This document shows positions 5,009 to 52,821 of a DNA stretch of 64,000 nt, piece by piece. The DNA is from Norana najaformis. Lineage: Eukaryota > Annelida > Clitellata > Crassiclitellata > Hormogastridae. The notes beneath the pieces are model-generated. The model saw nothing but the letters and a program-made list of their open reading frames with translations, ran no database searches and had not been told where the DNA came from. A program made the translations under genes and the position numbers. The stretch covers positions 48,500,530 through 48,564,529 of the forward strand of contig OZ029914.1 of the NCBI GenBank assembly GCA_964023275.1, written 5' to 3'. Each line of letters begins with the position of its first letter. Positions within the stretch are counted from its first letter, which is position 1.

Positions 5009-5051
5009 ATGAATAATCACGTGACTTCACTTGCTGGTTACCCTTTCCGTG
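5009..5051 (+). CDS. Gene A exon 1 (start codon, 14 aa)
   Basis: An ATG followed by 14 codons and one base ends at a consensus donor (CGTG|GTAAGT). Gene B has a 43-nt exon of the same length and phase at the equivalent place (23007-23049). The following exon supplies the hydrophobic stretch GLIVTVLIM, so the two exons together make the signal peptide or signal anchor. Confidence 0.55.
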
Positions 5052-50700: not shown

Positions 50701-52821
50701 GTAAGTGCTGTATAGTGCATTAAAATGCTCTTAACTTTCTGGTTTTCAGAATGAACTAGATTTAGGTTTCAGTAGCTATATGAATGTATTTTCATAGTTG
50801 ATTCCTGCATTTTCTCGTTGTGTCTGAGTTTACGGTAAACTTTCAGATTTATTGTATATTTCAGCTAGCCAACGTCAACACGAACATTTTTCTGTTTATG
50901 CAGAAGTTGTAAAAGTGAATAGTAAGTCAGTTTAAATTGTAAATTAGTTAGCTGCACTCCATATTGGTTCAGCTAATCTTGATCTCCTCATAAGTTTATA
51001 TGCTTGATCTATTGTGTTACATTGTAGCTCAGGAGTCTGCGCATTGTTTTCGTCCCAGTGTTATTCGAATCCAGATTGTTCAGCGGATCTCTTACAAAAA
51101 CTGCAAGAAGATTTATATATTTGTGATGTCATCTCTGTTAGGCTTTTGTAAATGAATATTGAATAAATGTTCGATTACGATTACAACATGCTAAAGGAAA
51201 TTGCAATCTATCTGTAGCTCGTAATCCCTATTCGATAAACTTAATTTCGATCGGGGTACAACTGTAAGCTCGTGTATCTGATACATCCTCCTGTAGATTT
51301 AAAGTTTGGGAGCCATGGCTCGATTAAAAAACATAAATAAATCATTAGGTCAGACGATTGCAATAATGCTCAAGTGACCTCATATCTGGAAACTTTCTGT
51401 TTTGCCCAGTCGGCTTCCCCAGATACTCAAGGACTTTCCTCATAGCTAGCTTCAGTTTCAACATACCAATTGCTGCCCGCTGGCTCCTGTTTCCTCTCTT
51501 CATATTCGAAAATGGCCACTATTCAAGTTGTCTGAACAGTGTTTGCTAACTGGCGAACTTTTTTGTTCTTAATTAAAGACTTTACCTGTCATTGAGGTTA
51601 TCGTAAGCAGCGCCTTGTGAGATACTTAAAAGCCGTTATATTAAATGTTTAGATAACTAACTAATTAACTAAACCAACCAAAGTGTTCATTTACTCATTC
51701 AGACGAGTTATCTTCTAAATTGAGAAAAGATAATCCTACCGGTTTGTTGTAATCTTAAGAATTATTACAAACTCCGCAAACTACTCATCGCTGTATTTCC
51801 TAATTTAACACAGAAAAAGGCACAGAACAACCAACATTCAAAGCAAAGTTTTGTCAAACCATTGTTAGGAGCACCATATCTATAATTAATGCCTTTGAGA
51901 TTTGGTTTTGCATTCGTGGAGCTCCACTGAAAAATTTCTTTTGAAGAGGCGTTGTAAAAATTTGTGATGATTGTTACATTTACAGTCTATCAAGTAGAAA
52001 ACTTACTTTTACTTACAGAACCAAAGACGTCGAATGGAAGCTATCAAACGGCTGCAGGAGTAGCGGCTGAAATTCGCCAGTCGAAGGTAGGATTTTTGCT
52101 ATTGAATTGCTGAATTGTTAAAATAGTTGTGGGTAAGCTGGAAAGGAATACTTCACATTTAATGGCAAGACATCAGTCATTTGAATCACAGTACACTTAT
52201 ATTTAATCATGGAATCTTTCCATGAATTCGACCTCTTCCGAGGATCACCAAAGTATTCAGGACACTTTGGCGCATTTGCAGTACATTCAGTTAATAATAA
52301 TAATAATAATAATAATAATAATAATAATAATAATAATAATAATAATAATAATAATAATAATAATAATAATAATAATAATAATAATAATAATAATAATATT
52401 AATAATAATAATAATAATAATAATAATCGCTCATCTATGGCCATCCAGAGCTTAAATGCTGTCGCTTTTGCAGCACCTTTCCCATTGAAAAAGCCATAAG
52501 CGAAGATTAGCCTTCCAAGAATAACGCCCCCTAATTTTTTTGAGGGATCATAATTATGTGTCTTAGGGAAAAAAATAATAACAGTTCGGCTACATGTCCA
52601 CATGTTTTTGTTTGTAGATTTCCACTGGAGCTGATGGAACCCAGTACGTTGCAGTGAATGCGATCCGCGATAGGAATTCAAGAGCTCCAGTCAGACATCC
52701 TCCGATGTTCAGTCTGGTGGAGACTTATGCAAGCATCGATCACACAGCCAGCGTTCCACCGCCTCCTTTACCGAAACGTCACCGAGACAAATCTAATTTA
52801 GAGCTCAGTGATTGTCCATAA
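44739..52821 (+). CDS. IgSF receptor gene D: two Ig domains, TM, ITIM/ITSM tail
   Basis: Seven exons: 44739-44778, 45751-46080, 46921-47346, 48599-48688, 50865-50921, 52019-52086, 52618-52821. They sum to 1215 nt in one frame, giving 404 aa. Layout: signal peptide, V-type Ig, second Ig with a Ser/Thr/Ala-rich stalk, TM, tail. Tail motifs are SVYAEV (canonical ITIM, SxYxxV), TQYVAV (ITSM, TxYxxV), ETYASI and the SH3-type PPPPLPKRH. The tail is homologous to gene A, exon by exon for the last two and the VYAEV exon. An ITIM plus ITSM pair is the arrangement used by vertebrate inhibitory receptors to recruit SH2 phosphatases; the same use here is inferred. Extra tail exons may have been missed. 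Confidence 0.75.
45751..46080 (+). CDS. Gene D exon 2: V-type Ig domain
   Basis: Phase 1-1, acceptor TTTGCAG, donor TTTG|GTATGA. It encodes IGHVTVEPQN, GEMTSMECRTD, KWDLL, TADAGLYTCVARLG and QLSAQLTVF. Complete Cys-Trp-DxGxYxC Ig signature. Confidence 0.9.
46262..46291 (+). repeat. (TA)n microsatellite
   Basis: TA dinucleotide run between the two Ig exons of gene D. Confidence 0.85.
46921..47346 (+). CDS. Gene D exon 3: second Ig-like domain plus stalk
   Basis: Phase 1-1, acceptor TTGTAG, donor TGGA|GTAAGT. It encodes ICETNLTT, GEYIGMSCSVAFRGFWMPTMEW, TSTLIVVVDSSMKDAFFSC, then the stalk GVVELPNYPASGTVTAADETASSPDW. The longest Ig exon of the cluster, because the stalk is fused to the domain. 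Confidence 0.9.
48599..48688 (+). CDS. Gene D exon 4: transmembrane segment
   Basis: Acceptor GTCTCTAG, donor TTTG|GTAAGC, phase 1-1. Helix LLVSGLSVFLIMLVILVVVL, then CTYYKEKVF. The nearer-looking acceptor at 48548 is excluded because it reads into a stop. Confidence 0.75.
48715..48790 (+). repeat. (CAT/CGT)n triplet repeats
   Basis: CATCAT/CATCGT trinucleotides just after the gene D TM exon, with a second smaller tract at 48905-48940. These give spurious His-rich frames. Confidence 0.85.
49588..49772 (+). mobile_element. tRNA-derived SINE, best-preserved copy
   Basis: A-box-like TAGTCGAGTGGTTAGAG and B box GGTTCGAGCC spaced as in a tRNA promoter, followed by a non-tRNA body (GGGACTTTGTGCAAGTCCTTCATTCAC, in pieces) and a TAATAAT-type 3' end. 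The anticodon region does not fold as a proper tRNA and the body is shared with other copies, so it is a SINE, not a tRNA gene. Confidence 0.75.
50865..50921 (+). CDS. Gene D exon 5: canonical ITIM (SVYAEV)
   Basis: 57-nt phase 1-1 exon, acceptor TTTCAG, donor AATA|GTAAGT, encoding SQRQHEHFSVYAEVVKVN. Ser at -2 and Val at +3 around the tyrosine satisfy the ITIM consensus. Paralogous to 12621-12683 and 22391-22447. Confidence 0.8.
52019..52086 (+). CDS. Gene D exon 6: penultimate tail exon
   Basis: Acceptor TTACAG (phase 1), donor GAAG|GTAGGA (phase 0). It encodes PKTSNGSYQTAAGVAAEIRQSK, homologous to gene A 16389-16459. Confidence 0.8.
52292..52427 (+). repeat. (AAT)n microsatellite, about 136 bp
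   Basis: Roughly 45 AAT units with one interruption, in the last intron of gene D. It produces artefactual poly-Asn, poly-Ile and poly-Leu frames. Confidence 0.95.
52618..52821 (+). CDS. Gene D last exon: ITSM, TYASI and SH3 motifs, stop
   Basis: Acceptor TTTGTAG, phase 0, ending TAA. It encodes ISTGADGTQYVAV, HPPMFSLVETYASIDHT, PPPPLPKRH and a 12-residue extension not found in gene A. Confidence 0.85.
   Translation: MSTGADGTQYVAVNAIRDRNSRAPVRHPPMFSLVETYASIDHTASVPPPPLPKRHRDKSNLELSDCP

Follow-up and report, generated by a model that had tools for sequence, protein, structure and literature searches.

The 64,000-nt stretch of Norana najaformis DNA analysed here (contig OZ029914.1; hereafter the window) holds a same-strand (+) cluster of immunoglobulin (Ig) superfamily (IgSF) receptor genes. 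Genes A, B, C and D lie within 5009-52821, limits set by the start codon of A and the stop codon of D, and gene E lies beyond. The cytoplasmic tails of A to D fall into two classes, one found in A and D and the other in B and C, and this grouping disagrees with that of the ectodomains, where A goes with B. We read the genes as a paired-receptor-like cluster of surface receptors, with a docking tail in A and D, a cassette with a Grb2-type site and a motif like the hemi-immunoreceptor tyrosine-based activation motif (hemITAM) in B and C, and a chimeric B; in our judgement the case for this reading as a whole is evenly balanced.

Gene models and the two tail classes

Genes were modelled on the + strand, and splice phases were required to agree. 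In the models of A to D every junction is phase 1, except that the final junction of A and of D is phase 0. The models, with TM for transmembrane exon, are as follows.

5009-18380, +: gene A, 12 exons, three Ig domains, from splice phases and translation
Ectodomain of A, +: signal-type N-terminus; V domain 5754-6143; Ig2 6462-6821; Ig3 7934-8200; TM 9268-9384
Tail exons of A, +, phase-consistent: 11702-11749; 12119-12190 (GC donor); 12621-12683 (VYAEV); 15415-15495 (GYDLV); 15912-16001 (LYTEV); 16389-16459; 18213-18380
18213-18380, +: terminal tail exon of A, with GTQYLDV, VETYASIDHT and PPPLPPKRH; homologous to D and to P0001, a related protein described below
23007-28210, +: gene B, 6 exons, three Ig domains
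Exons of B, +: exon 1 23007-23049; V 25040-25423; Ig2 25773-26129; Ig3 26521-26781; TM 27392-27511; tail 27939-28210
27939-28210, +: tail exon of B, with YEMV, hemITAM-like DSEGYCPL, a 13-residue spacer, YSRL and YVNT
34579-39821, +: gene C, 5 exons, two Ig domains
Exons of C, +: candidate signal exon 34579-34675 (GC donor); Ig1 35020-35340; Ig2 37364-37687; TM 38402-38512; tail 39547-39821
39547-39821, +: tail exon of C, with YEMV, hemITAM-like DSEGYCSL, a 13-residue spacer, YSRL and YVNT
44739-52821, +: gene D, 9 exons, two Ig domains
Exons of D, +: signal 44739-44778; V 45751-46080; Ig2 46921-47346; TM 48599-48688
Tail exons of D, +: 49161-49277; 49842-49910; 50865-50921; 52019-52086; 52618-52821
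52618-52821, +: terminal tail exon of D, with GADGTQYVAV (immunoreceptor tyrosine-based switch motif, ITSM), VETYASIDHT and PPPPLPKRH (SH3-type)

The original prediction, made from the letters of this DNA alone, had proposed two tail classes, with motifs resembling the immunoreceptor tyrosine-based inhibitory motif (ITIM), the ITSM and SH3 sites in A and D. The splice-consistent models bear out both points. The exons of the A and D tails correspond to one another, and both tails contain VYAEV, GTQY[LV]xV, VETYASIDHT and a proline motif, PP..LP.KRH. We scored a strict ITIM as [SIVL]xYxx[ILV], a strict ITSM as TxYxx[VI], YxxPhi as Yxx[ILVM] and an SH3 site as PxxPx[KR], and judged chance from 5000 composition shuffles per tail. 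The tail of A then contains FPVYAEV, NLGYDLV and LSLYTEV (both strict ITIMs, on exons 15415-15495 and 15912-16001, whose sole support is splice sites and an open frame), GTQYLDV (strict ITSM), VETYASI and PPPLPPKRH (PxxPxK). That of D contains FSVYAEV (strict ITIM), GTQYVAV (strict ITSM), TYMNI, ATYVEL, VETYASI and PPPPLPKRH (PxxPxR). Five of eight tyrosines are in Yxx[ILVM] both in A (1.44 expected, P 0.005) and in D (1.46 expected, P 0.006). Counts of the strict ITIM are weak (two in A, P 0.042; one in D, P 0.29); there is one ITSM in each (A, P 0.051; D, P 0.064), and the SH3 pattern occurs twice in A, overlapping (P 0.027), and once in D (P 0.14). For these tail motifs conservation is stronger evidence than chance statistics: GADGTQY and VETYASIDHT are invariant blocks in A, D and P0001, and the terminal exon has 27 invariant columns.

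In B and C the tail is a single exon, 88% identical between the two genes over 89 codons, with all four tyrosines in common. The double YxxL with a 13-residue spacer and the YVNT that had been described for this class are present in both genes; the YVNT we take to be a Grb2-type YxN site. Three of the four tyrosines are in Yxx[ILVM] in B (0.66 expected, P 0.014) and also in C (0.61, P 0.011; C is not independent of B), and the YxxL pair with its spacer of 13 has P 0.0002 in each tail by the same shuffles. Across all six frames of the window the 13-spaced pair has four matches, including one in each of these tails, and the pattern [DE]x?[DE]GYxxL has two, which are those of B and C. HemITAMs have an acidic consensus upstream of a single YxxL. 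DSEGYC[PS]L of B and C matches the hemITAM pattern used, but a second YxxL follows. Could the pair be a full ITAM? The published spacing is YxxL/I, 6-12 residues, YxxL, with 12 in FcgammaRIIA (PMC6433993), and we rejected an ITAM in B and C because their spacer of 13 falls outside it; the pattern YxxL/I, 6-12 residues, YxxL/I was found in none of the tails of A to E. HemITAM-like would seem to suit this tail better. Because there is no ITAM by the published spacing, what speaks for the label 'activating' in B and C is either the hemITAM-like motif or YVNT as a Grb2-type site.

Discordant ectodomains and tails, and the probable origin of gene B

Which gene does B resemble? The answer differs between the two ends of the protein. 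Over V and Ig2, A and B are identical at 158/220 positions (72%), with 81/101 in the V cores, whereas their tails agree at 16/93 (17%). B and C agree at 49/196 over V and Ig2 and at 79/95 in the tails. Both the A-B grouping by ectodomain and the B-C grouping by tail were kept in all 2000 column bootstraps, and the B tail matched those of A and D by BLASTP at E 1.9 or worse. An arrangement of the four genes as two pairs was rejected, C and D having ectodomains identical at 56/192 positions (29%); the only pair in the cluster is A and B, whose ectodomains alone are similar. As regards similar ectodomains with different tails, the paired-receptor architecture that had been proposed is supported for A and B, and it does not extend to C and D.

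Part of the DNA around the tail exon is common to B and C, as seen by self-blastn and in an identity profile.

27731-28896, +: matches 39339-40477 (83%)
29185-29551, +: matches 40495-40851 (76%)
29921-30769, +: matches 41297-42180 (70%)

The similarity starts at about 27716-27731, inside the intron that separates the TM exon from the tail exon; windows upstream of this point, TM exon included, show 41-53% identity. Within the duplicate the tail exon is better kept than its flanks (254/272 against 719/854 identical, P 6e-5). Noncoding DNA differs at 73/201 positions between A and B next to the V exon and at 135/854 in the B/C duplicate (Fisher P 5e-10). The B/C difference being the lower, B and C came to share the tail segment only once A and B had already split. 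The nucleotide difference between A and B climbs along the gene (V, 70/384; Ig2, 78/357; Ig3, 103/261); that of V, set against 73/201 in the adjoining noncoding DNA, is compatible with constraint too, as an alternative to conversion of the V exon. Paired receptors are marked by recombination that either exchanges their tails or leaves the binding domains similar, and here the B/C segment starts in an intron and postdates the A-B split. As a part of our reading, and one we hold with the same balanced confidence, B would be a chimera in which an A-type ectodomain and the B/C tail cassette were joined by recombination in the TM-tail intron.

Of the 7992 candidates scored in a protein search with D, a single one reached E 0.01. 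This protein, P0001 (448 aa), aligns with 94% of D at 27% identity and E 1.2e-26, and is encoded on a 1890-base contig as one uninterrupted open reading frame (ORF) comprising a signal peptide, V, Ig2, TM and an A/D-type tail. Since the exons of D are spread over 8 kb while P0001 is a single ORF, the contig is most likely complementary DNA (cDNA), a retrocopy being the lesser alternative, which makes expression of the A/D-type tail in a relative probable. The original prediction had made the omission of the tail exons from transcripts a ground for giving it up; for the A/D class this uninterrupted ORF of a related gene indicates the contrary. For the tail of B and C, no transcript came to light. 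The ectodomain of P0001 is A/B-type (46% identity to A, 45% to B, 28% to D) and its tail A/D-type (38% to A, 38% to D, 18% to B), with 53-68% identity in the terminal exon and with the motifs PIYAEV, PVYTSV, PVYAEV, TQYVEM and ETYASI. Because P0001, with an A/B ectodomain and an A/D tail, stands outside the A-B pair (A-B, 72%), the A/B ectodomain was probably joined originally to an A/D tail, and most simply it was B that switched. Against viral contigs, P0001 gave 16 pattern matches and no relative.

Gene E, domain assignments and other sequence in the window

Gene E is absent from the original prediction, and its first exon was not found in the model. Between A and B, and likewise absent from that prediction, there are remnants of an additional D-like tail, detected by tblastn and inspection of frames.

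57523-60106, +: gene E, two Ig domains
Exons of E, +: Ig 57523-57819; Ig2 58608-58937; TM and short tail, without YxxPhi, 59880-60106
19628-19708, +: D5-like remnant with in-frame stops
22396-22446, +: D7-like remnant, open, with splice-like ends

An alternative phase-1 donor lies after 60071 in E, through which further tail exons beyond the modelled end may be reached. Downstream of E, a scan for tail exons yielded nothing convincing as an internal exon; exons 6-8 of A and the tail exons belonging to B, C and D had no match there at E 1 (the later tail exons of A were outside the query). A basic residue in the TM of E, as in adaptor-coupled receptors, was considered and rejected: the core is uncharged, with D and R only just outside it, on the outer side. 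None of the five TMs of A to E has a charged residue in its 19-residue core.

Pfam Ig families match above cut-off in the A ectodomain, B and the first domain of E, and below cut-off in the V exon of D and the second domain of C; no Pfam Ig match was obtained for the first domain of C or the second domains of D and E. In C, D and E, the second domain was assigned by its homology to those of A and B (tblastn of A3 to D, 5e-14; to C, 3e-10; to E, 1.6e-5). An AlphaFold model of the second Ig domain was discarded as evidence (mean predicted local distance difference test score, pLDDT, 56.1; no Foldseek match at E <= 0.001, and no Ig domain among the top matches). The model of the first domain of C is weak (63.5) and also had no Foldseek match at <= 0.001; most of the 50 matches listed look by title and chain letter like antibody V chains, and four are CspA.

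An intact transposon-like ORF of 569 aa (13181-14890, -) sits in one of the introns of A. Of 7295 database proteins scored, 1732 match it at E 0.001, the best at 96% identity, and the named hosts among the matches listed are a frog, a firefly and a moth. Between the last two exons of D there is a long (ATA/TAA)n microsatellite (52297-52430). A dispersed repeat of about 105-170 bases, perhaps a short interspersed element, occurs in or beside the cluster at 38625-38792, 49619-49772 and 63450-63557, with copies 68-77% alike. The ORFs at 3457-3840, 10740-11159 (-) and 61178-61471 are presumably C-terminal pieces of reverse transcriptases of long interspersed elements, which they resemble. The octamer TAGGCCTA is present nine times in the window, against about 0.8 expected from base composition. 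Rfam at its gathering threshold and a tRNA scan gave no match in the window.

Possible signalling, alternative readings and known systems

How might the two tails signal? The multi-exon A/D tail would be phosphorylated by a Src-type kinase. Phosphorylated PVYAEV/SVYAEV, GTQYxxV and ETYASI would then recruit tandem-SH2 proteins, most likely an SHP2-like phosphatase, and the C-terminal proline motif would hold an SH3 adaptor. The N-SH2 domain of SHP2 prefers hydrophobic residues, including proline, at -2, +1 and +3 and an acidic residue at +2 (PMC8007070). PVYAEV meets all four positions and SVYAEV of D three, a fit that favours phosphatase docking by this tail. The single-exon cassette of B and C (hemITAM-like DSEGYC[PS]L, another YxxL after 13 residues, and YVNT) would more likely recruit Syk and/or Grb2, and B would turn the same kind of ligand contact as A into a different signal. 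HemITAMs recruit Syk, and glycine before the tyrosine is the state of Dectin-1 that supports cytokine signalling (PMC5932189); the hemITAM receptors known so far act as dimers (PMC4161388). Of the inhibitory-versus-activating split first proposed, the difference between the tails holds; the opposite signs find no support in the form proposed, B and C having no ITAM by published spacing and P0001 no strict ITIM.

Several points weigh against our reading of the cluster. YxxPhi sites also serve endocytosis, and their excess in the tails is marginal (13/20 tyrosines in the pooled tails of A, B and D against 13/34 in their ectodomains; one-sided Fisher P 0.052). Among the tyrosines of P0001 from residue 271 on, 0/10 are in a strict ITIM as counted by eye, and TQYVEM misses the strict ITSM. 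In the B/C tail the ratio of nonsynonymous to synonymous change (dN/dS) is about 0.75, so that constraint on the protein is weak to modest, and a database search with B (query without exon 1) found no relative at E 0.001 among 7998 scored candidates. The juxtamembrane start of the B tail has a marginal match to P0001 (11/32 columns, E 0.027), and a remote common origin of both tail classes is conceivable. What the analysis shows is the structures of the genes, the two tail classes, their discordance with the ectodomains, the lower age of the B/C tail segment and an A/D tail within one ORF of a relative; phosphorylation, binding partners, sign of the signal, a common ligand and an immune role are things that we infer.

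A lesser possibility, though one to be taken seriously, is that the classes differ in choice of adaptor and not in sign, B/C being a LAT-like/Grb2 scaffold and A/D an SHP2/SH3 scaffold, both promoting adhesion or growth signalling. SHP2 is often positive in its action, strict ITIMs are not conserved, and YVNT has the form of a YxN site; core tyrosine motifs with upstream acidic residues are moreover likened to LAT/SLP-76 sites in a review of Botryllus (PMC12065747). The acidic-G-Y-x-x-L of B and C, which is rare by chance, speaks for hemITAM-like function instead, as do separate tail classes on the near-identical ectodomains of A and B. It is unlikely that the genes are paralogs of cell-adhesion or neural Ig molecules, outside immunity, whose tyrosine motifs are mainly YxxPhi sorting signals and generic adaptor sites. 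The closest solved structures by sequence do include domains of Robo, contactin, neurofascin, neurotrimin and JAM, but matches of this kind are common to Ig domains in general. Conservation of the ITSM-like and SH3 elements speaks against this alternative, and fast ectodomain divergence beside a conserved terminal tail, together with gene duplication, an exchanged tail and exons in decay within 64 kb, better fits turnover of recognition genes.

The remaining two alternatives concern the genes themselves. Either B or C might be a pseudogene or the product of misassembly, but this is very unlikely. The dN/dS of the tail, the GC donor of the candidate exon 1 of C, the lack of a Pfam match for Ig1 of C and the donor GTTTGG after the TM exon of B would suit it, but frames are open throughout B and C, the tail exon is better conserved than its flanks, and the 16% difference in these noncoding flanks is too large for read error in a collapsed or duplicated haplotype. 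It is highly improbable that the tails are alternative cassettes, with one transcript unit splicing either class and neither tied to a separate gene. Phase-1 boundaries make cassettes exchangeable, D-like tail exon remnants lie between A and B, and the Botryllus fester co-receptors (FcoRs) change motifs through alternative splicing (PMC12065747); yet in the cluster every ectodomain is followed, ahead of the next gene, by TM and terminal exons of its own.

The paired-receptor-like reading invites comparison with known systems. In the paired receptors of vertebrates, similar ectodomains go with ITIM/ITSM or ITAM-like tails, and in Xenopus CEACAMs V-domain identity is 80-93%, against 80% for the A/B V cores (PMC5112662). 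Like CEACAM1/CEACAM3, A and B are clustered genes with similar V domains, one tail with ITIM-like motifs and an ITSM and another with other tyrosines; unlike them, B has neither an ITAM nor the ITAM-like spacing of 6-12, Ig3 is strongly diverged (43%), the common ligand is presumed, and the genes are not oppositely oriented (PMC5112662). B and C resemble Dectin-1 and CLEC-2 in acidic residues, glycine and YxxL, but the two lectins are type II proteins whose one tail is short and N-terminal, whereas B and C, Ig proteins of type I, also have another YxxL and YVNT (PMC5932189, PMC4161388). The original prediction had also called the finding of such a split in an invertebrate cluster notable. Splits of this kind are already on record: the FcoRs of Botryllus schlosseri, with 53 loci so far and a V-sushi-C2-C2 ectodomain, carry ITIMs, hemITAMs and core motifs, and ITAM/ITIM motifs are reported on Hydractinia allorecognition candidates (PMC12065747). 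Compared by description, our cluster is like the FcoRs in having multigene invertebrate Ig receptors with long tails bearing ITIM-like, hemITAM-like or core tyrosine motifs, and differs in that no sushi domain and no fester-like partner gene were recognised (PMC12065747); Pfam gave no sushi match in the ectodomain of A, anywhere in B, or in C, D and E over their Ig exons. The Alr complex of Hydractinia symbiolongicarpus is likewise, by description, an IgSF gene cluster with V-set- and I-set-like domains (PMC11999971, PMC12065747), and differs in its 41 genes (PMC11999971). Oyster CgIgIT2 is another invertebrate IgSF receptor with a tyrosine activation motif; it has five Ig domains and a classic ITAM, and the passage cited mentions no paired partner (PMC11999971).

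We put forward, tentatively and with rather more doubt than conviction, that the cluster is an independently evolved invertebrate paired system. An inhibitory-type receptor, with an A-like ectodomain and an SHP-docking tail as in P0001, would have been turned into an activating-type one (B) by one intron recombination that put the hemITAM/Grb2 cassette shared with C in place of the entire tail, and E, with its short tail, may represent a third type, one that depends on an adaptor. Should the proposed signs hold, A and B would be a frozen record of the birth of a paired receptor outside vertebrates, in which the outside was kept and the inside made new by one recombination in a phase-1 intron. 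If true, this would, together with Botryllus and Hydractinia, strengthen the case that recognition systems have repeatedly been built from unrelated Ig ectodomains and a shared vocabulary of tyrosine motifs.

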